This document shows, piece by piece, positions 17,466-64,000 of a stretch of 64,000 nucleotides of DNA. Numbering within the stretch: the first letter of the stretch is position 1; each line of letters starts with the position of its first letter. Position numbers and translations under genes: made by a program. The notes beneath the pieces are model-generated. The model saw only the letters and a list, made by a program, of their open reading frames with translations. It did not search any database and was not told the DNA's origin. The DNA comes from Polynucleobacter sp. AP-Latsch-80-C2 (GTDB lineage Bacteria; Pseudomonadota; Gammaproteobacteria; Burkholderiales; Burkholderiaceae). The stretch covers positions 62,001 to 126,000 of the forward strand of contig NZ_JACVOY010000005.1 in NCBI RefSeq assembly GCF_018882185.1, in the 5' to 3' direction.

Positions 17466-17483
17466 ATTTAACTAGGAGAAATC

Positions 17484-17708
17484 ATGGAACTAAAAGTTAA
17501 ACTCAGCGCACGCAATACGCTCAATGGAAAAGTTGTTGAGCTCAAGATGGGCCAAACGACTTCACATGTGAAGATAGATATTGGCGCCGGTCATATTGTC
17601 ACTGCATCTATCACCAATGAGGCGGTCGATGAGCTCAACCTCAAGGTAGGCGATGAAGCATGGGCGGTTATTAAAGCCTCTGATGTGATGGTAGCCAAAA
17701 GCGCTTAA
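17484..17708 (+). CDS. mop: Molbindin (single-Mop/TOBE-domain molybdate-binding protein)
   Basis: A 74-residue cytoplasmic protein consisting of one TOBE/Mop domain: L-S-A-R-N-T-L-N-G-K-V, V-K-I-D-I-G-A-G-H-I-V-T-A-S-I-T-N-E-A-V-D-E-L-N-L-K-V-G-D, and a closing V-I-K-A-S-D-V-M-V-A. Relatives assemble into hexamers that store molybdate or tungstate. It starts 18 bases after tupA behind an AGGAG ribosome site, so it is co-transcribed with tupA and presumably buffers the imported anion. A strong terminator follows. Confidence 0.92.
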   Translation: MELKVKLSARNTLNGKVVELKMGQTTSHVKIDIGAGHIVTASITNEAVDELNLKVGDEAWAVIKASDVMVAKSA

Positions 17709-17725
17709 GTGATGCAAGGCTAATG

Positions 17726-17751
17726 AAAAAGCCCGCAATTGCGGGCTTTTT
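17726..17751. terminator. Bidirectional rho-independent terminator
   Basis: GCCCGC-AATT-GCGGGC hairpin flanked by A5 and T5, between the convergent molbindin gene and the exported two-repeat protein. Confidence 0.93.
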
Positions 17752-17790
17752 ACATCCATAAACTACTGGATCTCATACTGATTTACTGAT

Positions 17791-18372: not shown

Positions 18373-18556
18373 GATAACTCCTAATAAGGGGTGAAGGTTA
18401 AATGTGCATCCAAAGGGAGGTCACACATTCATTGTACCCATGCCACCTTAAATTCCTAGTCCTAGTGCCATTCTCCCTTTAGACCCTGTTTTGGCAAGTT
18501 TGGTAAATTAGCTTAGGAATTCAACCCAAGCGCATAACTTAGAGAACTGGACCTTA

Positions 18557-19417
18557 GTGATCTTGATTCAATCCTGGCAAGAAGCTGCAAAGGCAGCATT
18601 TGCCATTCGTCAAAAAGTCTTTATCGAAGAGCAAGGGGTTCCAGAAGATCTGGAGTTAGATGAATTCGACCCACTGGCAACCCATGCCCTCGCTTTTCAG
18701 AAATCTGAGTGCATAGGCACAGGCCGACTAGTGCCCCTTAAGGATAAATGCGGCCAAATCGGCCGAATGGCCGTGCTTCCTGACTATAGAAATACTGGGG
18801 TTGGACGAGCCCTATTAGAGCAACTCATTGAACATGCACGATCCCTTGGCATACAGAGCCTCGTCCTACATTCTCAAGTCGTAGCTATTCCCTTTTATGA
18901 AAAACACGGTTTTCGGGTACAGGGGGATATTTACGATGAAGCAGGTATTCCACATCGTAATATGATTCTTCTATTACCGAAATTAAATTCAGTTCAAATG
19001 CCTACGACCCCTACCCCCTATTTACATCGCGTTTGTTACTCCGATACTGATGCAGCTGGCTTTGTCTACCATGGTCGCTATCTTGAGATTTTTGAACGCA
19101 GCCGAGCTGAATGGCTCTATCAACACGACCTCAGCCCCACCAAGTTAGTGAATGAGTTTGGCATTCTATTGCCCGTTCGCGAGCTCACGATGAACTTTTA
19201 TAAACCGGGTCGACTAGACGATCTTCTCTATATTGATCAAGTAATTGAACATCGCGGCCGAACCCAGGTTGCAGTAAAGCAAACCGCTAGTCGCATGATT
19301 CATGAAGGCAATGCCGATGACTTACAAATTATTGCAAGCGCTCTACTTCACATTGTTTGTGTCGACACCACGACGCTAAAACCTAAAGCAATACCTGACT
19401 GGCTTTTTATTGATTGA
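18557..19417 (+). CDS. Fusion of GNAT acetyltransferase and YbgC-type acyl-CoA thioesterase
   Basis: A single 286-residue frame encodes two enzymes. Residues 1-145 form an ElaA-like GNAT domain with the acetyl-CoA loop G-R-M-A-V-L-P-D-Y-R-N-T-G-V-G-R-A-L-L and F-Y-E-K-H-G-F. Residues 153-286 form a 4-hydroxybenzoyl-CoA-type hotdog thioesterase with the YbgC signature Y-S-D-T-D-A-A-G-F-V-Y-H-x-R-Y-L-E-I-F-E. A short T/P-rich linker joins them, so the fusion seems genuine rather than a lost stop codon. The start is GTG 18557; an internal ATG begins the hotdog part. Eight bases separate it from the thiol dioxygenase gene. Substrates are unknown. Confidence 0.82.
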   Translation: MILIQSWQEAAKAAFAIRQKVFIEEQGVPEDLELDEFDPLATHALAFQKSECIGTGRLVPLKDKCGQIGRMAVLPDYRNTGVGRALLEQLIEHARSLGIQSLVLHSQVVAIPFYEKHGFRVQGDIYDEAGIPHRNMILLLPKLNSVQMPTTPTPYLHRVCYSDTDAAGFVYHGRYLEIFERSRAEWLYQHDLSPTKLVNEFGILLPVRELTMNFYKPGRLDDLLYIDQVIEHRGRTQVAVKQTASRMIHEGNADDLQIIASALLHIVCVDTTTLKPKAIPDWLFID

Positions 19418-19424
19418 TTGAAAT

Positions 19425-20006
19425 ATGGCTGATGGAAAATTACTGACTTTTGTCAAAGGACTCACTGTTTTGCTAGAACAACACGCTAGCGAAGAAGTGA
19501 TATTCACCCAAGGAAAAAAGCTGCTCGAGAATTTAATCTCGGTTGATGACTGGCTTCCTAATGAATTCGCTCAGCCGCACCCTCAGTATTACCAGCAATA
19601 TTTACTGTATGCAGATCCCTTTGATCGATTTTCAATCCTCAGCTTTGTATGGGGCCCTGGTCAAAAAACGCCAGTACATAACCATACTGTTTGGGGCATG
19701 ATTGGCCAATTACGCGGTCAAGAGAAAGGTACTCTCTACTACCAACAAGCGGATGGAAGCTATAAGCCTGGATCACCCACGATCTGTTCACCAGGCCATG
19801 TCGATACCGTCTCCCCCAATACACATGACATTCATGAAGTTGCCAATAACCATCAAGACCAAACTTCAATCAGCATTCATGTTTATGGCGGAAATATGGT
19901 CAAAGTTGAGCGCGCCGTATTTGATCCTATTACGGGTAGCGAGAAAGTCTTTATTTCCGGCTATGCCAATAGGCTTGTGCCTAACCTCTGGAGCCAGTCT
20001 CAATAA
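19425..20006 (+). CDS. Cysteine dioxygenase-family thiol dioxygenase
   Basis: A cupin-fold iron enzyme of 193 residues that adds oxygen to a small thiol such as cysteine or 3-mercaptopropionate. The metal-binding pair is in P-V-H-N-H-T-V-W-G-M near residue 88 and the third histidine in I-S-I-H-V-Y-G-G near 150. The late S-x-H-x-x-H-E-V-type segment (N-T-H-D-I-H-E-V) supplies the active-site His/Tyr region. The W-x-P-G-Q-x-T-P-V-H-N-H layout is standard for bacterial members. Cysteine and 3-mercaptopropionate preference cannot be separated by eye. It is probably co-transcribed with the upstream fusion gene. Confidence 0.87.
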   Translation: MADGKLLTFVKGLTVLLEQHASEEVIFTQGKKLLENLISVDDWLPNEFAQPHPQYYQQYLLYADPFDRFSILSFVWGPGQKTPVHNHTVWGMIGQLRGQEKGTLYYQQADGSYKPGSPTICSPGHVDTVSPNTHDIHEVANNHQDQTSISIHVYGGNMVKVERAVFDPITGSEKVFISGYANRLVPNLWSQSQ

Positions 20007-49694: not shown

Positions 49695-50795
49695 TTAGAG
49701 CGTTGGGTAGTCGGTATAACCAGCCTCTTGTCCGCCATAAAAGGTAGCTCGGTTATAAGGATTTAACGGTGCATTTTTCTGGAAACGCTCCGCTAAATCT
49801 GGATTCGAAATATACAAACGTCCGTAAGCTACTGCATCCGCTAAACCATCTTCCAAAACCTTCTCACCCATCGCCTGATCATATCCACCCGCAGTCATAA
49901 ATTTTCCTTGATAGGCGGAGCGGAACATTTCTGAGGTAATAGGAGCATCTTCAAGTACTTGGTCACCACCACCAGCACTGGTTGAGCGCGGCTCAATCAT
50001 ATGCACATAGGCCAAGTTATAGCCATTCAACTTCTGAATAGCGGCAGTAAATAATGCTACTGGATCGCTGTCACCCATATCATTAAAGGTGCCATAAGGT
50101 GAAAGACGAATACCAATGCGATCGCTTGGGAAAACTTTAGCAACCGCTTCAATAACCTCGCCCAAAATACGCAAGCGATTTTCTATTGATCCGCCATATT
50201 GATCCTGACGTTGATTGGTTTTGTCTTGTAAAAATTGATCCAATAAGTATCCATTGGCCGCATGAATCTCAACACCGTCAAAACCCGCTGCTTTGGCATT
50301 TTGTGCCGCCAACTCATACTCCTTGAGTAAGCGAGCAATATCTTCAACACTCATTGCTTTTGGTGTTTCATAATCTTGCAGCTGCCAATCAGCCCCATAA
50401 GTTTGACCTGCAGGAGCAATTGCTGAAGGCGCTTCTGGAACGCCATGCTCTGGATGCAATGAAGAATGAGAAATACGTCCGACGTGCCATAGCTGCGCAA
50501 CGATCGCTCCACCCTTAGCATGTACTGCCTCAACAATTTCTTTCCATCCCGCAGTTTGCTCTGGTGTGTAAATTCCAGGAGTCGCGGGATAGCCCATACC
50601 CAGCGGTGAAATTTGAGTGGCTTCAGTGATGATCAAACCAGCACCGGCACGCTGTGAATAGTAGGTTTTAGCGAGTGGATTAGGAACATGTCCAGCGATA
50701 GCACGCATTCTTGTGAGAGGTGCCATAACGAGACGATTCTTCAATTGAATTGCACCGAGACTAACGGGGGTAAACATAATTTCTTTGCCGGACAT
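49695..50795 (-). CDS. nemA: Old-yellow-enzyme alkene reductase (NemA-like)
   Basis: A 366-residue FMN enzyme reducing activated C=C bonds or nitro groups. It has L-V-M-A-P-L-T-R-M-R-A near the N-terminus, Q-L-W-H-V-G-R-I-S-H, the catalytic-tyrosine and histidine region E-I-H-A-A-N-G-Y-L-L-D-Q-F-L, and Y-G-G-S-I-E-N-R. It lies 74 bases downstream of oxyR in the same direction and may belong to the peroxide/electrophile response. Confidence 0.92.
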   Translation of the reverse strand: MSGKEIMFTPVSLGAIQLKNRLVMAPLTRMRAIAGHVPNPLAKTYYSQRAGAGLIITEATQISPLGMGYPATPGIYTPEQTAGWKEIVEAVHAKGGAIVAQLWHVGRISHSSLHPEHGVPEAPSAIAPAGQTYGADWQLQDYETPKAMSVEDIARLLKEYELAAQNAKAAGFDGVEIHAANGYLLDQFLQDKTNQRQDQYGGSIENRLRILGEVIEAVAKVFPSDRIGIRLSPYGTFNDMGDSDPVALFTAAIQKLNGYNLAYVHMIEPRSTSAGGGDQVLEDAPITSEMFRSAYQGKFMTAGGYDQAMGEKVLEDGLADAVAYGRLYISNPDLAERFQKNAPLNPYNRATFYGGQEAGYTDYPTL

Positions 50796-50869
50796 ATAAC
50801 TCTTTCTATTTTCTGAAAATGATTCGAATGGATGACTGTAACAAGTTTTACTCTAGAGCGCAGGAGAGT

Positions 50870-51808
50870 CTATTTAGAAATGCCTCGGGTACGCTTCAGG
50901 CCCTGGCTCATTTCTGAGCATTCTTTTATGCAGCTTGATAAAGCTAAAAACTCTTCTTGGTGTGCAGTAGATGCTCTAGCTACCAAGGCAATGACCCTTT
51001 TAGGAGCTGGCGTTGCTAGTGGACGTGCCTCGAGATCAGAATGATTGAGCAGGCCACTCTTAATGGCCATCTCCGGCAACAAGGCTATGCCTAGCCCTGA
51101 CTCCACCATCTGAATCAAAGTTAATAAGCTAGTTGCCTCATAGCCATCGACATTCCGGATATCGGATTTTTTGCAAGCTTGCATACTGTGTTCACGGATG
51201 CAATGACCCTCTTCCAGTAATAACAAACGATCCGCCATCTTGATGGGTAGCGTGATTTCTTTTGCCTTTAAGGCGGGATCATCACTTCTGGCAACCAACC
51301 AAAACTCATCGCTAAATAATTCTTCCACTAGAAGATTACCAAGCTCATAGGGCAAAGCAATTAATGCAAAGTCCAACTGGTGATCTGCAAGTCTGGTTAA
51401 GAGATTGGCCGTCAAATCCTCGCGCAAGGTAATTTTGAGATTAGGAAAACGCTTGCGGATCTTGGGCATTACCAAAGGCAATAAAAATGGGGCAATCGTT
51501 GGAATTACACCCAAGCGTATCGTTGCCGACATCGGCTTGCCCAGTGACTCGGCCCGCTGAACCAAATCTTCGGAGGCAGCCAAAATAGTCTTAGCGCGCC
51601 CTAGTACTTCTAAGCCAGCAGGCGTAATGGAGACATTTTGACGATCACGCTCAAATAACTGAACCCCAAGACTCTCCTCGAGCTCCTTTAATCCCGCACT
51701 CAGAGTGGATTGCCCAACAAAGCAAGCCTCGGCAGCCCGCGTGAAATTGAGCTCCTTAGCGAGCGCCACCAGATAGCTCAACTGCCTTAAAGAGGGTAAA
51801 TAAGCCAT
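50870..51808 (-). CDS. oxyR: Hydrogen-peroxide-sensing LysR regulator OxyR
   Basis: A 312-residue regulator. The N-terminal LysR helix-turn-helix is followed by the ligand domain with the two redox cysteines Cys203 and Cys212 in G-H-C-I-R-E-H-S-M-Q-A-C, the same nine-residue spacing as E. coli Cys199/Cys208. It starts behind AGGAGG. It is divergent from rubrerythrin, making that operon a likely target. Confidence 0.94.
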   Translation of the reverse strand: MAYLPSLRQLSYLVALAKELNFTRAAEACFVGQSTLSAGLKELEESLGVQLFERDRQNVSITPAGLEVLGRAKTILAASEDLVQRAESLGKPMSATIRLGVIPTIAPFLLPLVMPKIRKRFPNLKITLREDLTANLLTRLADHQLDFALIALPYELGNLLVEELFSDEFWLVARSDDPALKAKEITLPIKMADRLLLLEEGHCIREHSMQACKKSDIRNVDGYEATSLLTLIQMVESGLGIALLPEMAIKSGLLNHSDLEARPLATPAPKRVIALVARASTAHQEEFLALSSCIKECSEMSQGLKRTRGISK

Positions 51809-51831
51809 ATGGCCTCCTTATCGATTTATTA

Positions 51832-51844
51832 GATAAATAATATC
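51832..51844. promoter_or_regulatory. Palindrome in the oxyR-rubrerythrin promoter region
   Basis: GATA-AATAA-TATC in the 149-base AT-rich divergent gap. It could be part of an OxyR binding site, but it does not match the ATAG-N7-CTAT consensus well. Confidence 0.35.
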
Positions 51845-51957
51845 ATTACTATTCATTGGACTGATTAATCAATTCAGCGCAAACTTCATCCCATGGTGAA
51901 GGAAGCATGAATACCTAAACCCCTAACACTGTTAATCATTGAAGAAAGAGGAGCAAG

Positions 51958-52443
51958 ATGGCACGTCCTGAAATTAAAACCTTCCAAAATTTGGAGTCTG
52001 CATTTGCTGGTGAATCTATGGCTCATATTAAGTATCGCTATTTTGCAAAACTGGCTCGTGCTGCTGGCGACGAAGAAACAGCTAAGATTTTTGAAGCCAC
52101 TGCCGATCAAGAAATCATGCATGCTTTTGGTCATTTAGATTTGCTCTACCCTGCGCAAACAATCACGCCAGCGCATGCCTTAGAGATCGCTATTGAAGGT
52201 GAAACCTATGAATACACAGAAATGTATCCAAGCTTTCGCAAGACTGCTGTAGAAGAAGGCAATGCCGCTGCAGTAACAGAGATTGATGAGCAAATTGCAG
52301 AATCTAAAGAGCATGCTGAGCAATTTAAAGCAGTCTTAGAAAAGGCAGCAAAACGCTTTGCAGCCCTCGCAAATGTAGAAGAACGTCATGCGAATCACTA
52401 TAAACAGGCCTTAGAGAAGGCAAAGATATTTGCAGCCGGTTGA
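51958..52443 (+). CDS. Rubrerythrin lacking the rubredoxin domain
   Basis: A 161-residue di-iron peroxidase of the rubrerythrin family. The ligand pattern F-A-G-E-S-M-A, A-D-Q-E-I-M-H-A, G-E-T-Y-E-Y-T-E-M-Y and E-E-R-H-A-N-H-Y is complete. The usual C-terminal rubredoxin domain is missing and is instead supplied by the separate rubredoxin gene 50 bases downstream. Strong AGGAG ribosome site. It likely reduces hydrogen peroxide with electrons from rubredoxin. Confidence 0.92.
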   Translation: MARPEIKTFQNLESAFAGESMAHIKYRYFAKLARAAGDEETAKIFEATADQEIMHAFGHLDLLYPAQTITPAHALEIAIEGETYEYTEMYPSFRKTAVEEGNAAAVTEIDEQIAESKEHAEQFKAVLEKAAKRFAALANVEERHANHYKQALEKAKIFAAG

Positions 52444-52493
52444 GCAGCAATGAGTAATTAAATTTAAAATGAATGATCTATTAAGGAAATCAG

Positions 52494-52661
52494 ATGAAAA
52501 CTTGGCAATGTATCGTGTGTGGTTTTATTTATGACGAAGCAAAAGGCTTGCCGGAAGATGGTATTGCTCCTGGCACCGCATGGGCTGATATTCCGGAAGA
52601 CTGGGAATGTCCAGACTGCGGAGTAGCCAAGTCTGATTTTGAAATGGTTCAGGTAAGCTAA
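52494..52661 (+). CDS. Rubredoxin
   Basis: A 55-residue electron carrier binding one iron through four cysteines: [11 protein letters not shown] near the start and W-E-C-P-D-C-G-V near the end, with the P-E-D-G-I-A-P-G-T motif between. AAGGAAA precedes the ATG. It sits between rubrerythrin and the reductase and surely links them. Confidence 0.95.
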
Positions 52662-52699
52662 GTCTTTCATCTAATAACGCAGCACTAGGGAGCTCAGCT

Positions 52700-53869
52700 T
52701 TGGAACAAAAAACATCATTACCCCAATCTGCCATCACCATTATTGGTAGCGGATTGGCTGGGTACACAGTGATTCGTGAAATACGAAAATTAGATAAAAC
52801 GATTCCAATCACCCTCATTACCAAAGAGCCTGGATACTTTTATTCCAAGCCTATGCTCTCGACTGCCCTCGCCAGCAAAAAGGATGCTGCCCAACTAGTA
52901 TCCACACCGCAAGATGGCATGGCTACCCAATTAGAAATTACCATTCTTTCACACACTGAAGTCAATGCCATTGACGTGACTGGTCAGACAGTAGTAACCA
53001 ATCAAGGCTCATTCCCTTATGGGAAATTGGTTCTTGCATTAGGTGCAGATCAAATTCGCTTACCTCTACAAGGCGATGCTGCGGATGAAGTTATCACCGT
53101 CAATGACTTAGAGGATTATGCAAAATTTCGCCAGCTGATTGATGGCAAAAAAAGAATTGCCATTTTGGGAGCGGGACTGATCGGCTGCGAATTCGCCAAT
53201 GACTTGGTGATTGGCGGCTACGAAGTGGATGTCATCGATCTAGCACCTCAAGCCTTAGGGCGCCTTCTGCCTGCCGAAGCTGCAACAGCGCTTCAAGAAA
53301 AATTAAGTGCTGCTGGCGTTCGCTGGCACTTTGCGACAACCTTACAAAGCATTGACCACAAGAATGATGCCCTTGAAATTGCCCTTGCTAATGGCGCCTG
53401 CTTGAGCAGTGATGTTGTGCTGTCAGCAGTGGGACTTAGACCACGGCTAGACTTAGCGAAAGCTGCTGGTTTGCAAACGAACTTGGGTATTGTGGTGAAT
53501 CGCGAACTGGAAACGAGCGTAAAAAATATCTTTGCGATTGGTGATTGTGCCGAAGTTGATGGGCTAGTTCTCCCCTATGTAATGCCAATCATGCAAGCAG
53601 CCAGAGCGTTAGCACCAACACTCACCGGCCAAACCACCGCCCTAATCTATCCCGCAATGCCAGTCATGGTCAAGACACCCGCATTACCGACAGTAGTTTC
53701 TCCGCCGGCCAAAGGAGTGTCTGGCCATTGGAAAACAATCATGGTAGATGGTGGAGTAGAGGCACGCTTTGAATCACCTGAAGGCAGGTTGCTAGGCTTT
53801 GCCTTAATGGGAAGCGCTACCACCCAACGTGCAGCACTTACTAAAGAATTGCCGCCGATACTGGAATAA
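52700..53869 (+). CDS. NADH:rubredoxin reductase (FAD)
   Basis: A 389-residue flavoprotein with I-I-G-S-G-L-A-G-Y-T, the G-A-G-L-I-G-C-E-F-A-N-D-L NADH motif near residue 155, and I-F-A-I-G-D-C-A-E-V-D near 275. GGGAG eight bases upstream supports the TTG start at 52700. It passes NADH electrons to the adjacent rubredoxin. Family resemblance is to AlkT- and NorW-type reductases. Confidence 0.9.
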   Translation: MEQKTSLPQSAITIIGSGLAGYTVIREIRKLDKTIPITLITKEPGYFYSKPMLSTALASKKDAAQLVSTPQDGMATQLEITILSHTEVNAIDVTGQTVVTNQGSFPYGKLVLALGADQIRLPLQGDAADEVITVNDLEDYAKFRQLIDGKKRIAILGAGLIGCEFANDLVIGGYEVDVIDLAPQALGRLLPAEAATALQEKLSAAGVRWHFATTLQSIDHKNDALEIALANGACLSSDVVLSAVGLRPRLDLAKAAGLQTNLGIVVNRELETSVKNIFAIGDCAEVDGLVLPYVMPIMQAARALAPTLTGQTTALIYPAMPVMVKTPALPTVVSPPAKGVSGHWKTIMVDGGVEARFESPEGRLLGFALMGSATTQRAALTKELPPILE

Positions 53870-53972: not shown

Positions 53973-54566
53973 TTATGAAACGATCACAAACCATGTTGTG
54001 TTGTGTGATTGAGCAACCATCAAGAACAACATTGGCACTGAAAGCAATGTGTTTAAACGGGATGTCAACATTGCAACACGTGCAGATTTAGCTTTTACAT
54101 CAGCTTCAACAGTAACCATGCCTAAGGCACGCTTTTGATTTGGCCAAATGATGAACCAAACGTTGAAAGCCATCACTAAAGCAATCCACATACCTAAACC
54201 AATAGCGCGGAATGGCGCTTGCAATGTAAAGGCTTGATGCAAGTAACCGTTTAAAGCGGCAACAATCAAACCAGTTACTACTGTAAACAAAGCAGCGTAG
54301 CGGAACCAGAACAATGCAGCAGGGGCAATGACTTTACCGATGGCTGGTTTTTGTTCATCAGGAATCTTTGGCATAGAAGGAATTTGCACAAAGTTAAAGT
54401 ACCAGAGCAAACCAATCCACATCACACCAAACATCACGTGCAACCAGCGGAAAATGAAAGGCAATTCAGCAGAAGCAAAGTTGCCGCCTAAAGCCAAAAT
54501 AATTAATACGAGAAGCGCAAAACCAGCAAATACGGTGCGCCCTAATGAAGTCAAAATTGAAGCCAT
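53973..54566 (-). CDS. Urate hydroxylase PuuD-type membrane protein, without cytochrome domain
   Basis: A 197-residue membrane protein with about five helices. It has the Urate_ox_N-like features R-W-L-H-V-M-F-G-V-M-W-I-G-L-L-W-Y-F-N, W-F-R-Y-A-A-L-F-T-V, and F-N-V-W-F-I-I-W-P-N-Q-K. The C-terminal cytochrome c domain of full PuuD is missing, so urate oxidation is doubtful. AAGGAGA fixes ATG 54566 against a longer upstream frame to 54635. Confidence 0.78.
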   Translation of the reverse strand: MASILTSLGRTVFAGFALLVLIILALGGNFASAELPFIFRWLHVMFGVMWIGLLWYFNFVQIPSMPKIPDEQKPAIGKVIAPAALFWFRYAALFTVVTGLIVAALNGYLHQAFTLQAPFRAIGLGMWIALVMAFNVWFIIWPNQKRALGMVTVEADVKAKSARVAMLTSRLNTLLSVPMLFLMVAQSHNTTWFVIVS

Positions 54567-54773
54567 GAAAGGATCTCCTTTATATAAGAATGCGGTGTAA
54601 CTATAAACGATTCTAGTGAATTTGTTTAAGTTCACCCAAATGGGGAATTCTTACTCAAAATTGCCCAAAAACCGGAATCTGCCCCTCCCCCACTAGAGAA
54701 CCATGAATTACTAGAAAAATAGATAAACTATGAATATTGATTTGCACAGATTAAAACCCAAATATATAGAGAC

Positions 54774-55800: not shown

Positions 55801-56577
55801 TTACTGAGCAGTCCAACCCCCATCCATATTCCAGGCTACGCCCCGAACTTCAGAGGCATCTGGTCCACAGAGAAATACCGCTAAAGCTGCCAACTGCTCA
55901 GGAGTTACAAATTCTCCTGAAGGCTGCTTCTCAGAAACCAGCGCTTGCTTTGCTGCCTCGTTAGAGATCCCCTCACGTTCAGCACGAGCGTCTACCTGTT
56001 TTTGGACCAAGGGTGTCAAAACCCAACCAGGGCAAATAGCATTACAAGTAATGCCAGTGCGCGCATTTTCCAAGGCGGTGACTTTTGTTAATCCGACAAT
56101 ACCGTGCTTGGCTGCGACATAGGCTGCTTTTTGTGTAGATGCGACCAGACCATGAACTGAAGCAATATTGATGATGCGACCCCAATTGCGTTTCTTCATT
56201 CCAGGCAAGGCGTGATGCGTCGTATGAAAAGCAGAGCTTAAGTTAATCGCAATGATGGCATCCCACTTATCAGTAGGAAAATCTTCAATATTGGCGGTGT
56301 GTTGAATGCCGGCATTGTTCACCAAGATATCCAAGGAACCAAAACGTTTTTCAGTTTGCTTGATGAGATCTTCAATCTCAGCAGGCTTACTCATATCTGC
56401 GCCGTGATAATCTACCTCAACGCCGCAAGCTTTAATTTTTGCTAAGGCTTCCTCTTTTTCGCCAAAGCCATTCACCATAATATTGACGCCCTGCTTTGCC
56501 AATGCAATTGCCATTCCCAAGCCAATACCGCTAGTAGAACCTGTTACCAGGGCTGTTTTACCTTTTAATGTGGACAT
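55801..56577 (-). CDS. 3-hydroxybutyrate dehydrogenase-like SDR
   Basis: A 258-residue NAD-dependent short-chain dehydrogenase. It has T-G-S-T-S-G-I-G-L-G-M-A at the start, N-N-A-G-I-Q mid-protein, and the catalytic S-V-H-G-L-V-A-S-T-Q-K-A-A-Y-V-A-A-K. The H-x-x-x-x-W-x-x-I-I-A-x-N-L-S-S-A-F pattern and C-terminal V-x-G-x-x-W-N-M-D-G-G-W fit D-3-hydroxybutyrate dehydrogenase. It is 129 bases downstream of the coxL-like gene in the same direction. Confidence 0.87.
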   Translation of the reverse strand: MSTLKGKTALVTGSTSGIGLGMAIALAKQGVNIMVNGFGEKEEALAKIKACGVEVDYHGADMSKPAEIEDLIKQTEKRFGSLDILVNNAGIQHTANIEDFPTDKWDAIIAINLSSAFHTTHHALPGMKKRNWGRIINIASVHGLVASTQKAAYVAAKHGIVGLTKVTALENARTGITCNAICPGWVLTPLVQKQVDARAEREGISNEAAKQALVSEKQPSGEFVTPEQLAALAVFLCGPDASEVRGVAWNMDGGWTAQ

Positions 56578-56706
56578 ATCTTCAATACCGTATCAAGTTA
56601 ATCAGGGGGGGTCGCAAAATAGCGACCGCTAAAACTTGATGTTACAGGATACCCATACCCCATGAGGATGGGGTATGCACCAAGAAAATAAGGATCAGAG
56701 GAAAAA

Positions 56707-59103
56707 TTAGATCTTTTTGAGGGCCCGCAGGATCTTTTCGCAAGTAATAGGCTGATCAAAGACATTTACCTTGAATGGTGCCAAGGCATCATTGATTGCA
56801 TTTTGTACGGCACCAGGCGCACCCGCAGTACCAGCCTCACCTGCACCTTTTGCACCTAGCTTGGAAGATTGCGTTGGCGTCTCTACGTGCGCTACCTCTA
56901 TGTCCGGCATTTCATTGGCCATAGGTACCAAGTAGTCTGCCATGCTGCCATTGCGTAACAAGCCGCTTTCGTCATAGAGACATTCCTCAAACAATACGCC
57001 ACCAATACCCTGAACAATAGCGCCGCGAACTTGCTCATCGACCAACATAGGATTAATCACTCGACCGCAATCTTCTACCGCCCAATGCTTGAGTAGTTTT
57101 ACAAAACCAGTCTCGGGATCTACCTCAACATAAGAAGCCTGAACGCCATTCGTAAAAATAAATGGGTACTCTTTCTGGGTGTAGTGACGCGTCACCATCA
57201 GGTCAGCTGAAAATCCTGCAGGCAGAGTATCGGTTCGGAAATATCCAATCCGTCCAATCTCACCAAAAGGTAGCAGTGACTCACCACTGGCTTTATCTAG
57301 CACATGACCTCTGCGAACTGATAACTCAGTAGCAGATCTGTTCAAGATTGCCCCTGCTAATCTGAGAATATTTTCTTGTAGAGCTTGGCAAGCTAAAAGC
57401 ACTGCCTCACCGCCAACGCCTGCGCCCCGTGATGCCCAGGTTCCACCCCCATAAGGAGTGACATCGGTATCGCCAGTAACAATGCGTACCTGATTGATGG
57501 CGACTCCAACCGCATCCGCTGCAATTTGGGCATAGATACCCTCAGTACCCTGGCCTTGCTCACCAACACCAATTAATACCGAAACTACTCCACTTGGATC
57601 TAGGCGGACTGTTGCACCATCCTGAGAGGCAATCCGCGCCCCACCGACACCATAAAATGCTGGACTTGGATTAGTCAACTCAATCAAGGTTGCGAAACCA
57701 ATACCGCGATAGATGCCCTGCTTACGCAATTCCTCTTGCTCCTTACGCAAGGCAGGATAGTCCATCATCTTTTCGATTGTGCGTAAGCATTGCTCGTGCG
57801 AAAGAACTTCTAATTTGATTCCTGAAATTCCTGAGCAAGGATAAGCATCATCCGGGATCACATTGCGCTTACGGAACTCCAAAGGATCCATCTGTAACTG
57901 TTGTGCCGCTAAATCTACCAAGCCCTCGGTAACTGCACAGGCAATCGGATGACCCACACCGCGATACTGACAAGTTGGCGTTTTATTCTGAAATACGACA
58001 TTGAGTTTGGCGCGATAGTGTTGATGCTTATAGGGTCCGCCAACTAAATTGACCACCTGGTTACCCTCGATGGCGCTGGTTCTCGGAAACATTGAATAAG
58101 GACCAATGGCAGTTAAATCATCAATCTCAAAGGCCAAGATATCGCCTGCCTTATTAGCAGCAATACGACCCTTGATACGATGCTCACGCGCATGGATATC
58201 GCTCGTAAATGACTCGAGACGATCCGCCACAAACTTCACGGGGCGCTCAAGCATCATTGCTAAGCCAACCGTAGCAAAATCATCAGGATAGGCATGTACT
58301 TTGATGCCAAAGGAACCGCCAACATCTTTGCAGATCACATGCACATCGGATTCGGATAGACCAAACTGACGACAATACAAATCTTGCATCATGTGGGGCG
58401 CTTGCTGGGAGTGATATACCGTTAAGCGCCGCTCACCTGGGTTGTAATCCGCAATCTGACAACGAGGCTCGAGGGTGACGCCAGTATGTCGACCAAAACC
58501 AAAGGTAGCTTCCGCGACTACATCAGCATTAGCAAATACCTCATCTACATTTCCGACATCTAAGCTGCGGGTAAAACATAAATTATCACCAAGCTCAGGA
58601 TGAATTAATGGCGTCTGTGGATCCAAGGCAGTCTCCATAGAGACAACAGCCGGCAACTCTTCCCACTCCACATCAATTAACTGCAAAGCATCTTCAGCTT
58701 GTGCTCGGGTCTCTGCTACTACCGCCACTACCGGCTCACCCTGCCAACATGCGCGATCAATCGCTAAGGCATGTTGTGGCGCAGACTTCATGCCCGCTAA
58801 GTGGCCTAGCGTTGCCACCCAAGGCTTACAAATTTTTGCCATTTCCACGCCATCCACCACTGCGAGTACGCCCGGCATCTTGCTTGCTTCATCTTTATGA
58901 ATCTTACCAATCTTCATGTGCGCCACAGGGGAGCGCCAGTAAACAACATGTCCCATGCGCGGTAACTTAATGTCATCGATATAAGTTCCTTGGCCTTCTA
59001 GAAGGCGTCTTGCACTGTGTCTTGGTTCGCTATTACCAATATAGCGTTGATCATTGGTCACGGGATCCAATACCAGTCCCTTTAAATCACTTGGCTTATT
59101 CAT
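56707..59103 (-). CDS. Molybdenum hydroxylase large subunit (CoxL/xanthine-dehydrogenase family)
   Basis: A 798-residue molybdopterin-binding subunit. Seen are the N-terminal S-E-P-R-H-S-A-R-R-L-L-E-G-Q-G-T-Y, G-G-S-F-G-I-K mid-protein, the A-S-R-G-A-G-V-G-G-E-A loop and the final G-A-K-G-A-G-E-A-G-T-A-G-A with the catalytic glutamate. The CO-dehydrogenase motif A-Y-x-C-S-F-R is absent; the site reads Q-Y-R-G-V-G-H-P instead, so this is a hydroxylase of another substrate. It is the last of coxG-M-S-L-like genes. Confidence 0.92.
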   Translation of the reverse strand: MNKPSDLKGLVLDPVTNDQRYIGNSEPRHSARRLLEGQGTYIDDIKLPRMGHVVYWRSPVAHMKIGKIHKDEASKMPGVLAVVDGVEMAKICKPWVATLGHLAGMKSAPQHALAIDRACWQGEPVVAVVAETRAQAEDALQLIDVEWEELPAVVSMETALDPQTPLIHPELGDNLCFTRSLDVGNVDEVFANADVVAEATFGFGRHTGVTLEPRCQIADYNPGERRLTVYHSQQAPHMMQDLYCRQFGLSESDVHVICKDVGGSFGIKVHAYPDDFATVGLAMMLERPVKFVADRLESFTSDIHAREHRIKGRIAANKAGDILAFEIDDLTAIGPYSMFPRTSAIEGNQVVNLVGGPYKHQHYRAKLNVVFQNKTPTCQYRGVGHPIACAVTEGLVDLAAQQLQMDPLEFRKRNVIPDDAYPCSGISGIKLEVLSHEQCLRTIEKMMDYPALRKEQEELRKQGIYRGIGFATLIELTNPSPAFYGVGGARIASQDGATVRLDPSGVVSVLIGVGEQGQGTEGIYAQIAADAVGVAINQVRIVTGDTDVTPYGGGTWASRGAGVGGEAVLLACQALQENILRLAGAILNRSATELSVRRGHVLDKASGESLLPFGEIGRIGYFRTDTLPAGFSADLMVTRHYTQKEYPFIFTNGVQASYVEVDPETGFVKLLKHWAVEDCGRVINPMLVDEQVRGAIVQGIGGVLFEECLYDESGLLRNGSMADYLVPMANEMPDIEVAHVETPTQSSKLGAKGAGEAGTAGAPGAVQNAINDALAPFKVNVFDQPITCEKILRALKKI

Positions 59104-59123
59104 CTTACGGTTTCCTAATTCGA

Positions 59124-59633
59124 TTAAGCGTGAGCAACAACGGGTTTGATTTTTTGACCCTTAGCACGTGCATCCAATACATCGACAATGGCATCCACAA
59201 TCGAGTGATAACCAGTGCAGCGGCAATAATTTCCCGAGATCCATTCGCGCACTTCTTCACGCGTCGCTTTGGGTCTTAGTTCAATTAATTCGGCTGCAGC
59301 TAACAACATTCCAGAGGAGCAGAACCCACATTGCATCGCGTTATGACGCATGAAAGACTCCTGCAGATCCGACAAGGCACCACTCTTGGTAAGACCTTCA
59401 ATCGTCTCAACCTCGCCACCATCCGCCTGAATCGCGAGATATAAACATCCCCGAATAATTTGACCATTTACCTTCACGGTGCAGGCACCACAGGCGCCCT
59501 GTTCACAGCCAAGATGGGGGCCCTTTAAATGCAGTTCTTCGCGCAAGAAATCTACTAAATGGGTTCGCGGCTCTATCTCTGCTTTTACAGAAACGCCATT
59601 CACGGTCATTGCAATTTTTTTCTTAATGCTCAT
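59124..59633 (-). CDS. Molybdenum hydroxylase iron-sulfur subunit (CoxS-like)
   Basis: A 169-residue protein with two 2Fe-2S clusters: the plant-type C-E-Q-G-A-C-G-A-C-T-V near residue 45 and the second C-G-F-C-S-S-G-M then C-R-C-T-G-Y-H-S-I. It passes electrons from the molybdenum site to FAD. GGAGATTTTG fixes ATG 59633. Twenty bases separate it from the large-subunit gene. Confidence 0.94.
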   Translation of the reverse strand: MSIKKKIAMTVNGVSVKAEIEPRTHLVDFLREELHLKGPHLGCEQGACGACTVKVNGQIIRGCLYLAIQADGGEVETIEGLTKSGALSDLQESFMRHNAMQCGFCSSGMLLAAAELIELRPKATREEVREWISGNYCRCTGYHSIVDAIVDVLDARAKGQKIKPVVAHA

Positions 59634-59663
59634 CAAAATCTCCGAATTCTTTTCTGACGTATT

Positions 59664-60518
59664 TCAGGAAACCAAATGCTTGAGACCACGCTCAAGCAAT
59701 ACCCCGATTAAATGTTGTTTCGCTTCTGCACTATTCGTAATATCGGCAATCGCCTCGATCTCTGAGCGAGCTGCTGCTACCGCTTTACCGATTAAGGCTT
59801 CGTCAAGCTTGTGACCATCAACCAAGTTCTGTGCGCTAGTAGCCATCACTGGAGTAGCGCCCACAGAGAAAAAAGTAAAAGCGCAATCATTTAAGACATC
59901 GCCCTGCTTCTTAGCTACCGCAGCTAAACCTGCAACGGCATAATCGCCATGCCTTCTAGCTAGCTCATGGAAATAAAAAACTTGATCCTGAGTGGCAATT
60001 GGAAATTCGGTTGCCACGAGGATTTCATCTGGCTCAAGTGAGGTGGTGTAAAGATCAATAAAAAAATCTTGAGCGGAAATACGGCGCTCACCTGCAGGAC
60101 CACAAATAATCATGACGGCATTCAAAGTCAAGCTGCATGCTGGCCATTCTGCTGCTGGATCGCCGTACGCCAATGATCCACCCCATGTACCCAGATTACG
60201 AATAGCACGATGCGCAATGTGTGGCACTGCAGCTTTTAATAAGGGCGCATGCTTGGTAATTAACTCTGAATCTTCAATTTCGGTGTGCGTTACTAGCGCA
60301 CCAATTCTGAGCTGGTCGCCAACTACGCTAATGCCCTTTAGCTCAGCGATATCCGTAATATCAATCAGTACGCTTGGCTCTGATAGACGCATATTTAATG
60401 TGGCCAGCAAGGTTTGACCGCCTGCAATTAAACGCGCATCCTCACCTGCCTCAGACAATAGAGATAAGGCCTCAGGCAAGGCCTTTGGCTTTACATAATC
60501 AAATGCTGCGGCTTTCAT
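59664..60518 (-). CDS. Molybdenum hydroxylase FAD subunit (CoxM-like)
   Basis: A 284-residue FAD-binding subunit. A-G-G-Q-T-L-L-A near residue 32 and R-N-L-G-T-W-G-G-S-L-A-Y-G-D-P-A-A-E-W near 107 are the two FAD-contact motifs. Followed within 30 bases by the iron-sulfur subunit gene. The GGAGACAC ribosome site is clear. Confidence 0.93.
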   Translation of the reverse strand: MKAAAFDYVKPKALPEALSLLSEAGEDARLIAGGQTLLATLNMRLSEPSVLIDITDIAELKGISVVGDQLRIGALVTHTEIEDSELITKHAPLLKAAVPHIAHRAIRNLGTWGGSLAYGDPAAEWPACSLTLNAVMIICGPAGERRISAQDFFIDLYTTSLEPDEILVATEFPIATQDQVFYFHELARRHGDYAVAGLAAVAKKQGDVLNDCAFTFFSVGATPVMATSAQNLVDGHKLDEALIGKAVAAARSEIEAIADITNSAEAKQHLIGVLLERGLKHLVS

Positions 60519-60612
60519 TGTGTCTCCTCCACTGCCATTTTTTTAGCCCTTAAGGCTTTATGTTTTTTTGCTAATGCGCTTACTGCAATTTTTATTTTTT
60601 ATGACTGCCTTA

Positions 60613-61089
60613 CTACTCACTACCAGTACCAGACTCCAGCACCACTGTCTCCCCGCCTAATTCTTTTGCAAACTTTTGAAAGAAATCATCTGCAATCTTT
60701 TTTGCTGATGCGCTAATTAAGCGCCCGCCAATTTGTCCTAACTTTCCGCCAATAGAGGCTTCAGTCGTGTATGAAATCAAAGTTCCACCCTCTGCCTGCT
60801 TCAACTCAACGCGGGACTTGCCTTTGGCAAAGCCAGCTGCGCCACCAGATCCCTCAAAAGCCATAGAGCAAGACTGGTCAGGAATAATGTCGCTGAGGAG
60901 CAATTTGCCCGAAAAACGTGCCCTGACAGGGCCAATCTTGAACATCACCTTGGCATGAACCTCCTCTGGAGAGATTCGGCTAATTTCCTCACAACCCGGA
61001 ATGGACTTAGCCAGCACATCAATATCGTTCAATCCCCTCCATACATCTGGGATTGGAGCGGCTATGAGTTGCTCGCCATTGAGTTCCAT
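60613..61089 (-). CDS. CoxG-like SRPBCC protein
   Basis: A 158-residue protein of the CoxG family (START/SRPBCC fold): M-E-L-N-G-E-Q-L-I-A-A-P, V-W-x-x-L-N-D, S-I-P-G-C-E-E, and G-G-K-L-G-Q-I-G-G-R-L-I. In CO-dehydrogenase operons CoxG helps attach the enzyme to the membrane. It is the first gene of the minus-strand unit and is divergent from the TetR regulator. Confidence 0.9.
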   Translation of the reverse strand: MELNGEQLIAAPIPDVWRGLNDIDVLAKSIPGCEEISRISPEEVHAKVMFKIGPVRARFSGKLLLSDIIPDQSCSMAFEGSGGAAGFAKGKSRVELKQAEGGTLISYTTEASIGGKLGQIGGRLISASAKKIADDFFQKFAKELGGETVVLESGTGSE

Positions 61090-61120
61090 TTACTCTCCTT
61101 GGGGTTTGTACGAATAGAGT

Positions 61121-61173
61121 CTTATCGACCAATTGTTCAACAATGTACCATTATTTAACTTTTGGTCAATAAG
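61121..61173. promoter_or_regulatory. Divergent promoter region with two candidate TetR operators
   Basis: An inverted repeat CTTATCGACCAA (61121-61132) / TTGGTCAATAAG (61162-61173), 11 of 12 bases matching, encloses a perfect 13-base palindrome ATTGTT-C-AACAAT (61132-61144). Both lie between the divergent coxG-like and TetR genes. Confidence 0.6.
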
Positions 61174-61201
61174 TCCAAATTCGGATAAACCCTGAGAATC
61201 C

Positions 61202-61894
61202 ATGCGTTTTACTGAAGATAGCGTTTCCAGCCCAAATCAAGCCGAAAATTCGGTAGATGCCATCGCCCCAACGAGGCGTCGGATGAGTACTGCCGAGCGG
61301 AAACGTCAAATTTTGGATCGCGCCATTCAGTTTTTTGCCAAATACGGGATTGACGGTCAGCTCCGAAATCTGACCAAGGAATTAGGTGTCACCCACACCC
61401 TCCTCTATCACTACTTTCCAACTAAAGACGCACTGATACAAGAAGTTTACAAAGAGGTATTTGAATCCAGGTGGAAACCCGAGTGGGAAACACTACTGGA
61501 TGATGAGTCGCTGACTCCTGAAGAAAAGTTCAATGCTTTTTATTTGGATTACACCAATACTGTCCTCACCTATGACTTTGTACGCATCTTAATTTTCTCA
61601 GGCTTGAGTGATCACAGTATTAGCGATCGATTCTTTGCGTTATTGCGCTCGCGCTTATTACCAAGACTTATACGCGAGACTCGCAAGTACTGCAATCAAC
61701 CGACTACACCTAAGCCTACTCAGCGGGAACTGGAGTTCCTCATGGGCTTACATGGTGGTATCTTTTACATTGGCATGCGCCGCTGGATCTATGGTCAAGC
61801 GATATATGCCGCAGAGAGCCCAGACACCGAACAAGAAATTATTCGTGATCGCGTGCAATCCTACCTTCACTCCGCTAAATCTCTATTTGCTTAA
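61202..61894 (+). CDS. TetR-family regulator
   Basis: A 230-residue regulator. The helix-turn-helix lies around residues 50-75 (L-G-V-T-H-T-L-L-Y-H-Y-F-P-T-K-D-A-L), preceded by a polar 30-residue start. The C-terminal ligand domain is unique to the protein. It is divergent from the molybdenum hydroxylase unit and precedes the VOC and monooxygenase genes, so it probably controls the whole locus in answer to the substrate. Confidence 0.9.
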   Translation: MRFTEDSVSSPNQAENSVDAIAPTRRRMSTAERKRQILDRAIQFFAKYGIDGQLRNLTKELGVTHTLLYHYFPTKDALIQEVYKEVFESRWKPEWETLLDDESLTPEEKFNAFYLDYTNTVLTYDFVRILIFSGLSDHSISDRFFALLRSRLLPRLIRETRKYCNQPTTPKPTQRELEFLMGLHGGIFYIGMRRWIYGQAIYAAESPDTEQEIIRDRVQSYLHSAKSLFA

Positions 61895-61908
61895 TTCCAA
61901 AGGTCGAC

Positions 61909-62367
61909 ATGTCCAACTTAAGCCTTAACCACTTCTCCATTCGCAGTCTTGAAATTGAAAAAACGACTGAGTTCTTTACTAAATTATTGGGCTTAACTGT
62001 TGGACCAAGACCAGAATTTCCCTTTCCTGGTGTATGGCTCTATAACGGTGATGAGAGTAGCTGGGCCAATGCCGTACTCCATCTGATTGCGATTGATAAG
62101 AATGATCCCAATGGCTTAAAGAAATATCTTGGAGATCGCGATCCTTCTTCTCTGCACGGCTCAGGTGCAGTTGACCATATTGCCTTCTTTGCAAATGGTC
62201 TCGAAGAAAAAATTGCACTGCTTCAATCCATGAAGGTTCAATACCGCGAGCGTACCGTTCCAGTTCTCAAACTCCATCAGATCTTTCTAGATGATCCCAA
62301 TGGTGTGGTCATCGAATTGAACTATCCAGCAGAAGAAAAAGCTGCTTTAGACGCCAAGGCGGCATAA
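61909..62367 (+). CDS. VOC-superfamily (glyoxalase/dioxygenase-fold) protein
   Basis: A 152-residue single-domain VOC protein with L-N-H-F-S-I-R-S near the N-terminus, G-A-V-D-H-I-A-F-F, and D-P-N-G-V-V-I-E-L-N near the end, giving the His/His/Glu metal pattern. It could be an isomerase, a lyase or an extradiol-type dioxygenase. It sits 14 bases after the TetR gene and 10 before the monooxygenase. Confidence 0.85.
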   Translation: MSNLSLNHFSIRSLEIEKTTEFFTKLLGLTVGPRPEFPFPGVWLYNGDESSWANAVLHLIAIDKNDPNGLKKYLGDRDPSSLHGSGAVDHIAFFANGLEEKIALLQSMKVQYRERTVPVLKLHQIFLDDPNGVVIELNYPAEEKAALDAKAA

Positions 62368-62377
62368 GAAAGCATTC

Positions 62378-63643
62378 ATGGCAAAAATTCTGGTAGTGGG
62401 CGGATCTCTTGGAGGCTTATTTGCAGCGAATATGTTGCTGCGCCAAGGTCATGACGTCACCTTATTGGAGAAAGCCCTAGGTTCACTAGATGGTAGAGGT
62501 GCAGGGATTGTGACGCACGATGCTTTAGCGAATGCGCTGCGTGCTGCCGGTGTAACAGTAGATGACACCCTGGGTGTTCCAGTAACAAAGCGAGTGACGC
62601 TAGGTGAAGATGGGCAAAGCCTGGGTGAAATGGAGTTGTCACAAGTATTAACCTCTTGGAGTCGCTTGTATCAGATGCTTAAAGAAAGCTTTCCTAGCGA
62701 ACGCTATCTACAGGGCAAAACCGTCATTGCAGTCAAGCAAGATAATGATGCTGTGTATGTAAGCTGCGAAGACGGCAGTCAATACGAAGCAGAAGTATTA
62801 ATTGCTTCTGATGGAATCCGCTCTGGGGTCAGAGCACAAGTCGCTCCAGAGATCCAACCTGAATATGCTGGTTACATTGCCTGGCGTGGTGTATGTGATG
62901 AAGCCTGTCTCTCCAAATACACCTTAGATACCTTATTCAATCGTTTTGGCTTTTGCCTACCAAATGGCGAACAAATGCTGGGCTATCCAGTAGCAGGATC
63001 AGGCAATGACACACGTCCAGGAAAGCGCCGTTACAACTTTGTCTGGTATCGCCCCGCCTCTGAAAACGATGAGCTTGTTAGTCTCTTGACGGATGATGAT
63101 GGCCACTACTATCCAGCCGGAATTCCACCTCTGAAAGTTTCCTGGAAACATATTCACAAAATGCGCCAAAAAGCCAAAGAGATTCTGGCGCCGCAATACG
63201 CAGAGATCCTGGAAAAAACGGCAGCGCCATTCTTGCAGGCGATTTACGATGTGCGCTCCGAGGAAATTGTATTTGGGCGCATTGCTTTAATGGGTGATGC
63301 TGCTTTCGTTGGAAGGCCACATGTCGGTATGGGCGTCACTAAGGCAGGCGATGAGGCAATGGTGATTGCTAAACATATTGCCCAACTGGGGGCAACTCCC
63401 GCTGCATTGCAAGCGTATAGAGATGAGCGGCTTCAACTGGGTCAGCAAGTGGTAGCCAGAGCGCAATATTTAGGTCGATATATGCAGGCCCAGGGTAGCA
63501 AAGGTACCCCTAATAGCGAAAACCTGAAACGCAATGCCGACACAGTCATGGCTGAAACTGCAATCGATATCAGTGATTTATTAGCCCAAGGGAAAGCAGT
63601 GCCTGAGTCCACGCATTCATTGGTGCATTCAGTTAAGATTTAG
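62378..63643 (+). CDS. FAD-dependent monooxygenase (2,6-dihydroxypyridine-3-hydroxylase-like)
   Basis: A 421-residue aromatic hydroxylase with V-V-G-G-S-L-G-G-L-F-A-A near the start, L-I-A-S-D-G-I-R-S-G-V-R mid-protein and G-R-I-A-L-M-G-D-A-A-F-V-G-R-P-H-V-G-M-G near residue 310. The early G-R-G-A-G-I-V-T-H and the overall layout recall the DHPH/FAD-binding-domain group of hydroxylases acting on dihydroxypyridines. Together with the molybdenum hydroxylase this suggests N-heteroaromatic hydroxylation. A short VOC gene precedes it. Confidence 0.85.
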   Translation: MAKILVVGGSLGGLFAANMLLRQGHDVTLLEKALGSLDGRGAGIVTHDALANALRAAGVTVDDTLGVPVTKRVTLGEDGQSLGEMELSQVLTSWSRLYQMLKESFPSERYLQGKTVIAVKQDNDAVYVSCEDGSQYEAEVLIASDGIRSGVRAQVAPEIQPEYAGYIAWRGVCDEACLSKYTLDTLFNRFGFCLPNGEQMLGYPVAGSGNDTRPGKRRYNFVWYRPASENDELVSLLTDDDGHYYPAGIPPLKVSWKHIHKMRQKAKEILAPQYAEILEKTAAPFLQAIYDVRSEEIVFGRIALMGDAAFVGRPHVGMGVTKAGDEAMVIAKHIAQLGATPAALQAYRDERLQLGQQVVARAQYLGRYMQAQGSKGTPNSENLKRNADTVMAETAIDISDLLAQGKAVPESTHSLVHSVKI

Positions 63644-63694
63644 AACATAAAAAAGTATTCTTATTTAAACAGGTTTTATATGGAGGAGACAACC

Positions 63695-64000
63695 ATGAAA
63701 CAAAAAGTAACGAATCAATCCAGAAGAAAAGTATTGATCGGTGGAGCTGCCGTAGCGAGCACTCCACTCTGGTTAAACGTAGCAAATGCTCAAGCAGACA
63801 CCATTAAGATTGGTTTTCCAACACCCTTAACCGGCCCCTTCTCTGCAGAAGCACAAGACCAAGTCAAGGCTGCTGAATTGGCTATCAAAGAATTTAATGA
63901 TGCCGGCGGCTTTAATGGACGCAAAGCTGAACTCTTAGTGCGCGATGACAAACTCAACCCAGGTGAAGCTGCAACTCGCACCCTAGAGTTGATTGAAAAA
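63695..64000 (+). CDS. Branched-chain-type (LivK family) ABC receptor, 3' end cut by window
   Basis: The first 102 residues of a periplasmic receptor. A signal with S-R-R-K-V-L-I-G-G (twin-arginine-like) ends near A-N-A-Q-A. Then I-K-I-G-F-P-T-P-L-T-G-P-F-S and A-I-K-E-F-N-D-A-G-G-F-N-G-R-K open the type I fold used for amino acids and aromatic acids. GGAGGAG at 63682-63688 is a strong ribosome site. Last visible gene of the TetR-headed plus-strand run, it may import the locus substrate. Confidence 0.87.
   Translation, partial: MKQKVTNQSRRKVLIGGAAVASTPLWLNVANAQADTIKIGFPTPLTGPFSAEAQDQVKAAELAIKEFNDAGGFNGRKAELLVRDDKLNPGEAATRTLELIEK

Follow-up and report, generated by a model that had tools for sequence, protein, structure and literature searches.

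A stretch of 64,000 nucleotides from Polynucleobacter sp. AP-Latsch-80-C2 (the window; G000:C50:62001-126000 of the 2.53 Mb genome G000) carries at its right edge a divergent locus with two arms. The large, medium and small subunits of a molybdenum (Mo) hydroxylase (L, M and S) and a CoxG-type protein, in the order CoxG-M-S-L, lie opposite a TetR-family regulator, a VOC-superfamily protein, an FAD monooxygenase (FMO) and a LivK-type binding protein, and LivHMGF continue this second arm past the window edge. Together the 12 genes span 11.6 kb (11,645 bp in G000) and almost certainly constitute one inherited unit. We tentatively propose that they form a self-contained catabolic module, which imports a small nitrogen-containing ring compound, probably of the oxopurine type, and oxidises its ring twice.

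Gene families were assigned from open reading frames with Pfam and NCBIfam profiles, and the right flank was read 14 kb past the edge. All genes named in an initial annotation of the locus exist in the orientations it gave, and Pfam backs each family. The initial annotation had also stated that the gene order matches no set known to its author. We likewise found no description of a unit joining a Mo hydroxylase with a flavin monooxygenase, and no publication on this gene set was recognised in a literature search that had few subscription papers within reach.

The twelve-gene unit in Polynucleobacter

Among the 121 Polynucleobacter genomes sampled, an FMO match was found in 64 (in two of these in pieces) and L in 61. 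Both genes are present in 60 genomes and both are missing from 56. Four genomes have FMO without L (G094, G336, G293 and G323, two of the four decayed), and one has L without FMO (G327, a metagenome-assembled genome (MAG) that is 73% complete).

Sites lacking the module were fetched through the neighbouring cls gene from 18 of the 57 congeners without an FMO match. L, S, M, CoxG, TetR, VOC, FMO and LivKHMGF were absent at the site in all 18, the sole exception being one 28% LivF-like match (locus L181). The SDR gene and the DedA-like gene that border the module stand 48-261 bp apart at all 18 sites, compared with 11,645 bp where the module is present. Since the block is missing as a whole while its two neighbours stay, we regard the 12 genes as a single unit.

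The flanking genes are retained without the module, which excludes them from the unit. The SDR gene (55801-56577) was found in 18 of the 18 module-less genomes and was therefore rejected as a member of the set. The DedA-like gene (18), the acyl-CoA dehydrogenase (17), the CaiB CoA-transferase (17) and a PF06181 gene (17) were dropped as pathway parts for the same reason. TctC, kept in four of the 18 and variable among module-bearing loci too, was also dropped. According to the right-flank reading, LivF is followed by a minus-strand VTT-domain (DedA-like) gene, the acyl-CoA dehydrogenase and the CaiB-type CoA-transferase, and further right by two genes read as cardiolipin synthase (cls) and endonuclease/phosphatase. 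No ring-opening hydrolase or dioxygenase was seen in the 14 kb read. The ring-hydrolysis gene at first expected past the right edge thus did not appear; LivHMGF lie there, and then genes that most module-less genomes retain.

Left of the module, the PF06181 gene (window 53973-54635) encodes a short membrane protein with a partial Urate_ox_N match of 50 bits. The adjacent positions 49695-53869 hold old-yellow-enzyme (OYE), LysR, rubrerythrin and rubredoxin-reductase-like genes, found in 15, 14, 7 and 16 of the 18 module-less stretches, respectively. In other congeners, G094 has a decaying module copy with several genes as fragments (L183), and the FMO gene of G336 is in fragments (G336:C1:506299-507557). 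G323 has a VOC-FMO pair (81% and 75%), and no Mo genes were seen in the part of the locus that was read (L164, G323:C18:90000-109999, pair at 7600-9300); the pair lies about 10 kb from a PuuE-like gene that has its own VOC neighbour (L162; 34% to the window VOC).

Enzymes, conserved partners and promoter

By its sequence, L is not a CO dehydrogenase (CODH). As initially noted, the CODH motif is missing: QYRGVGH stands where the solved CoxL chain has AYACSFR, with the CoxL alignment as printed shifted by one residue at this stretch. We take AYxCSFR to be the active-site motif of form I CoxL. The L residues C378, Q379, Y380, R381, V383, G384 and H385 are invariant in 28 orthologues. L failed both NCBIfam CODH models (455.6 bits, cut-off 991; 475.7 bits, cut-off 950) and did not reach the cut-off for the xanthine dehydrogenase XdhA (393 bits, cut-off 780). 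Its best NCBIfam match, glyceraldehyde dehydrogenase, was also below threshold (532 of 790 bits). None of the cut-offs was passed, so the NCBIfam models assign L to no characterised group of isoquinoline-, aldehyde- or xanthine-oxidising enzymes, and by these models the idea of an uncharacterised enzyme was not refuted.

The nearest solved chains to L are quinoline 2-oxidoreductase and mycobacterial CoxL. In a tree of 32 rows, the window L falls in a 25-row clade (support 100/100) without NdhL, KdhL and an HmfA-like protein of the window genome, all three of which are long branches. The available text of PMC8305194 gives E345, W551 and E748 as the substrate residues of KdhL, with E345 binding the amine tail. 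W551 and E748 are kept in L as W556 and E756, and E345 aligns with R341, which is invariant. The replacement of the tail-binding glutamate by an invariant arginine hints that the substrate may be anionic.

The FMO passes NF005566 (PRK07236 subfamily) with 459.8 bits at a cut-off of 333. Its nearest solved structure is dihydroxypyridine hydroxylase (DHPH; 2vou, E 4e-49), but DHPH, a long branch, lies outside the FMO clade. In a tree of 42 rows, this clade has 33 rows (support 100/99) and includes Burkholderiaceae VOC-linked, Rhizobium/Bosea, Methylobacterium and Pantoea FMOs. The signature LP..EQ..GYPV is present in 31 of the 33 rows; a Variovorax row has AYPV and a Pantoea row is without EQ. 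DHPH and the other paralogues in the tree lack the signature. The VOC-linked sets of Burkholderiaceae relatives, including one on a Cupriavidus plasmid, share the FMO clade and have a VOC partner of 46-52% identity. They differ by an ActP-type symporter and, by reading, by NicB-like Mo proteins and OYE in several. Two of them have LivKHMGF of 58-65% identity and no CoxLMS-type enzyme adjoining, and the FMO stretches of these two are identical.

In the VOC protein, H8, H58, H90 and E136 are invariant in 24 of 24 sequences. In a structural model (pLDDT 82, pTM 0.66) they lie on strands 4-13, 55-61, 88-95 and 134-140, so that the predicted metal ligands would occupy the four VOC strand positions, a metalloenzyme pattern. 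A four-ligand VOC site is more typical of an isomerase or hydrolase. The best matches in a fold search were methylmalonyl-CoA epimerases and extradiol dioxygenases, with TM about 0.5-0.6. For LivK, the closest solved structure is 3i09, which names no ligand.

The same partners accompany L outside the window genome. Of 125 loci scanned for close relatives of L, 80 were retained; they come from Polynucleobacter, Jezberella, Polaromonas, Hydrogenophaga, Rubrivivax, Leptothrix and many MAGs. Partners were counted where the sequence extends at least 6.5 kb to the FMO side, which holds for 62 loci and leaves out 18. S and M accompany L in 62/62 of these loci, and near L we found VOC in 58, FMO in 57, TetR in 53, CoxG in 46 and LivK (at least 50% identity) in 46. 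VOC-FMO is missing from four Hydrogenophaga-type loci, which carry a TRAP transporter and, in two of them, XdhC as well. In a plasmid collection, all eight records with a LivK match of E 1e-60 or better have LivK adjoining Mo genes or VOC-FMO. L was present in at least 11 of the 398 genomes of a phylum sample, a lower bound because two candidates per genome were scored.

A PuuE-like C-N hydrolase was found in eleven of the 62 loci, namely L108 and those of the P. kasalickyi type, never alongside a LivK of at least 50% identity. It was dropped as a general Polynucleobacter partner, since it is present in 14/121 genomes and the G000 copy is on another contig. That copy (L159, G000:C3, 6168-11319) precedes an amidase gene, with a cytosine-deaminase-like amidohydrolase and ABC importers close by, possibly a second N-ring pathway. 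Among seven loci from another bacterial family, four (L196-L199; L 60-61%) have a PuuE-like hydrolase and a luciferase-like monooxygenase adjoining M-S-L, the hydrolase being 54-56% identical to that of P. kasalickyi (profiles were run on one representative of each). Three of these four also have an HsaA-like hydroxylase and a flavin reductase, a variant with other flavin enzymes. The remaining three loci read TetR-M-S-L-LivKHMGF, with no FMO. Gene calls in the high-GC loci are rough, and only some frames were re-read.

The 112-bp gap between the CoxG and TetR genes, a divergent promoter, contains two copies of the palindrome TTATYGACCAANTGTTCAAYAAT (Table 1). One hundred shuffles gave a mean of 0.00 matches to this pattern, which was itself derived from the region. 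All 49 intergenic regions compared (the window and 48 of 57 loci; in the other nine the TetR-CoxG gap could not be cut out) carry a copy at 0-2 mismatches, and shuffled regions have 5-12 mismatches. The two copies are likely TetR operators serving both arms. The rest of the window genome has a single match, with 3 mismatches, inside a long coding frame read as DNA ligase, and a regulon outside the locus was therefore rejected.

Table 1. Positions of the module genes and putative operators in the window.
Feature	Position	Strand	Basis
Mo hydroxylase large subunit L (CoxL/xanthine-oxidase family, non-CODH by sequence)	56707..59103	-	Pfam MoCoBD_1/2, Ald_Xan_dh_C
[2Fe-2S] small subunit S	59124..59636	-	Fer2/Fer2_2
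FAD medium subunit M	59664..60518	-	FAD_binding_5, CO_deh_flav_C
CoxG-type protein	60613..61089	-	PF06240, 94.4 bits (gathering cut-off 22.2, passed)
Palindromic element copy 1, likely TetR operator	61122..61144	+	TTATYGACCAANTGTTCAAYAAT, 0 mismatches
Palindromic element copy 2, likely TetR operator	61150..61172	-	TTATYGACCAANTGTTCAAYAAT pattern, 2 mismatches
TetR-family regulator	61202..61894	+	TetR_N; missing wherever the block is missing
VOC-superfamily protein	61909..62367	+	PF00903
FMO, PRK07236 / PF22607 type	62378..63643	+	NF005566, PF22607
LivK-type substrate-binding protein	63680..64000, on to window-equivalent 64930	+	Open reading frame and right-flank reading
LivH, LivM, LivG, LivF	Beyond right edge, after LivK, to window-equivalent 68351		Right-flank reading

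Clues to the substrate

The initial annotation had suggested an aromatic or N-heterocycle pathway linked to nicotine and hydroxypyridine breakdown. Its first part stands, with the Mo hydroxylase and FMO in one unit and an N-heterocycle as the best reading: the substrate is probably a compound of this class. That it is of the oxopurine type we put forward with less confidence, as a tentative choice. The Mo step likely precedes the FMO step.

In Methylobacterium, relatives of 11 of the 12 module genes occur in one locus; VOC is without a match there. The locus spans about 17 kb in M. radiotolerans, M. oryzae and strain NMS14P (gene families were verified on the M. radiotolerans record only). It contains an NCS1 nucleobase symporter, an Asp/Glu/hydantoin racemase, MFS, uraH, uraH, uraD and FMO, together with a small gene that proved cupin-like in the one case tested, the TetR gene, M, S and L, LivKHMGF and CoxG; in M. 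oryzae, an annotated puuE lies upstream as well. Identity to the window is 65-66% for L, 66-70% for LivK, 63-64% for LivH, 58-59% for LivM, 61-62% for LivG and 60-61% for LivF. It is 54% for S, 48-50% for CoxG, 46-47% for M, 41-44% for FMO and 36-37% for TetR. In their active-site loops, the L proteins of Polynucleobacter and Methylobacterium are very similar to each other and unlike NdhL, KdhL and the HmfA-like protein. The related transporter and the like Mo pocket suggest the same or a similar substrate in both genera, and the run uraH-uraH-uraD-FMO suggests that the product of the Methylobacterium FMO is 5-hydroxyisourate-like. The PuuE-like C-N hydrolase that occurs with L in the P. kasalickyi-type loci and in L196-L199 adds support for an N-ring substrate.

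A precedent for a Mo enzyme followed by a flavoprotein is the C-8 oxidation of caffeine in Pseudomonas sp. CBB1 (cdhABC-tmuM-tmuH-tmuD), where, in the available text of PMC4408171, CdhABC is followed by the flavoprotein TmuM and the putative TmuH/TmuD. As proposed for the module, a heterotrimeric Mo enzyme comes before an FAD monooxygenase, and the UraH/UraD step is common to the Methylobacterium relative of the module. The same source describes tmuM as highly similar to hpxO, which the module FMO is not. TmuH/TmuD homologues are without a match in G000, which has VOC and the Liv importer instead. cdhABC is annotated in methylobacteria (the accessible part of PMC10499228), an annotation that may or may not refer to the Methylobacterium Mo-FMO locus.

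Several observations weigh against an oxopurine-type module. UraD and UraH have no match in G000. UraD was found in 6/121 congeners, all FMO-bearing, and has no match in 58 of the 64 FMO-bearing genomes; allantoicase was found in 3/41 congeners (G000 included), all FMO-bearing, with 22 of the 41 carrying FMO. Urate-oxidation genes without urah and urad are very few cases according to the available text of PMC4562309. With UraH/UraD missing from G000, either VOC does their job or the substrate is another N-heterocycle. The PuuE-like protein scores 116-127 bits at a PuuE cut-off of 425, and genomes of one group each encode several paralogues of it. The FMO scores 98.2 bits against the HpxO model (NF033623; cut-off 500) and has RPH where HpxO has TPD, and Rhizobium/Bosea FMOs of other gene settings form the sister group of the Methylobacterium FMO in the 42-row tree. 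The set is also not constant, since neither FMO nor VOC was seen in the part read around relatives of L in Hydrogenophaga-type, Neorhizobium, Dinoroseobacter and Loktanella loci, L194 and L196-L202, and two Cupriavidus-type loci have LivKHMGF and VOC-FMO but no L. Finally, 13 further, mostly more distant loci fit the palindrome only at 3-8 mismatches.

We considered four other explanations. Since CoxLMS-type enzymes also use furoyl-CoA or aldehydes, a nitrogen-free aromatic or small carbonyl compound has some chance of being the substrate, though we think it unlikely. The sub-threshold glyceraldehyde dehydrogenase match of L and a furoate-type Mo cluster with Liv genes, so read in the window genome, fit with this, but the block is without a CoA ligase, and C-N hydrolases and urate genes are among the neighbours of L in other groups. 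The furoate-type cluster (L008, G000:C1:258001-278000, at 7090-19998) is by reading a second Mo-hydroxylase set resembling hmfABCDE. It comprises an AraC-type regulator, a large subunit fused to a CoxG-like domain, FAD and 2Fe-2S subunits, an AMP ligase, an enoyl-CoA hydratase, LivKHMGF and TctC.

A pyridine/pyridone route, where the Mo enzyme would yield a 2,6-dihydroxypyridine-like compound for hydroxylation by the FMO, on the model of Kdh and DHPH in nicotine degradation, is doubtful. DHPH is the closest solved structure and shares the RPH motif with the FMO, kdh and dhpH occur together on a nicotine plasmid, and L retains the tryptophan and catalytic glutamate that KdhL requires, according to the part of PMC8305194 at hand. 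The lower nicotine pathway of Paenarthrobacter (ndhLMS, kdhLMS, dhpH) is similar in its Mo hydroxylase, PF22607-type flavin monooxygenase and SRPBCC protein. However, both enzymes stand apart from the module in the trees: L is outside NdhL and KdhL, and DHPH, without the EQ-GYPV signature, is outside the FMO clade, with NdhL, KdhL and DHPH being long branches. The amine-tail residue of KdhL aligns with an arginine, and neither the cyclase-family protein nor the carbon-nitrogen hydrolase beside dhpH on the nicotine plasmid has a counterpart in the module. The tree comparison thus lent no support to the nicotine/hydroxypyridine link. On the plasmid record L185 (NZ_CP068014.1, 18636-22424), ndhA/B/C are labelled as 2,6-dihydroxypyridine 3-hydroxylase subunits; nicotine dehydrogenase is expected, and the product names look wrong.

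An ordinary urate front end, from xanthine to urate to 5-hydroxyisourate and then by standard enzymes to allantoin, appears improbable. The Methylobacterium loci contain uraH, uraD and puuE, G000 has allantoicase and ureidoglycolate lyase, and 6/6 UraD-bearing congeners carry FMO. The FMO belongs to the same FAD monooxygenase superfamily as the urate hydroxylase HpxO and, judging from the Methylobacterium context, may catalyse the same reaction. Against such a route stand the HpxO score far below its cut-off, the other motif, and the rarity of UraD and allantoicase described above. Moreover, the FMO-bearing G269 has UraD and a separate locus (L192, G269:C68) with an allantoinase-like gene (52% to the annotated M. 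oryzae PuuE), full-length PuuD and allantoicase, as well as, by reading, ureidoglycolate lyase and urease genes. In G000, allantoicase and ureidoglycolate lyase lie with an M20 hydrolase (L191, G000:C9, 2294-12112), in a locus that by reading also holds a phosphoribosyltransferase-like and an integrase-like gene.

An aerobic CODH, the label given to such Polynucleobacter genes, fits the CoxLMS-like subunits and CoxG but can be dismissed with great confidence, given the missing motif, the 456-476 bits at cut-offs of 950-991 and the flavin monooxygenase adjoining L in 57/62 loci. Table 2 of PMC5018217, in its available text, lists CODH in P. yangtzensis MWH-JaK3. Since this strain carries the block (L074), the published label probably refers to it.

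Proposed function

We return to an oxopurine-type catabolic module. LivKHMGF would take up the compound, and the Mo enzyme, matured by CoxG, would use oxygen from water to form a C-OH/C=O adjacent to a ring nitrogen. The FMO, with oxygen from O2, would then hydroxylate the ring made electron-rich by the Mo step. VOC, a metal-dependent non-redox enzyme by its ligand pattern, may convert the unstable FMO product and so stand in for UraH/UraD of the Methylobacterium relative. TetR at the two operators between the arms would repress both until the compound arrives. A more speculative step, for which the chances appear small, is that the FMO clade with EQ-GYPV constitutes a new FAD hydroxylase family of the urate type that is distinct from HpxO, with VOC as an unrecognised replacement of UraH/UraD.

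Polynucleobacter is a dominant free-living lake genus with small genomes, and about half of the 121 sampled genomes carry the module. A CODH misreading would misstate the carbon and energy sources of these bacteria. The module is compact and has its own regulator, likely operators and importer at one site, which makes the substrate directly testable. If VOC acts after the FMO on a urate-like product, it would fill a gap in the bacterial opening of oxidised N-rings. If the urate-type FMO and the VOC replacement are true, freshwater betaproteobacteria would have a purine-ring pathway that does without the standard 5-hydroxyisourate and OHCU enzymes.

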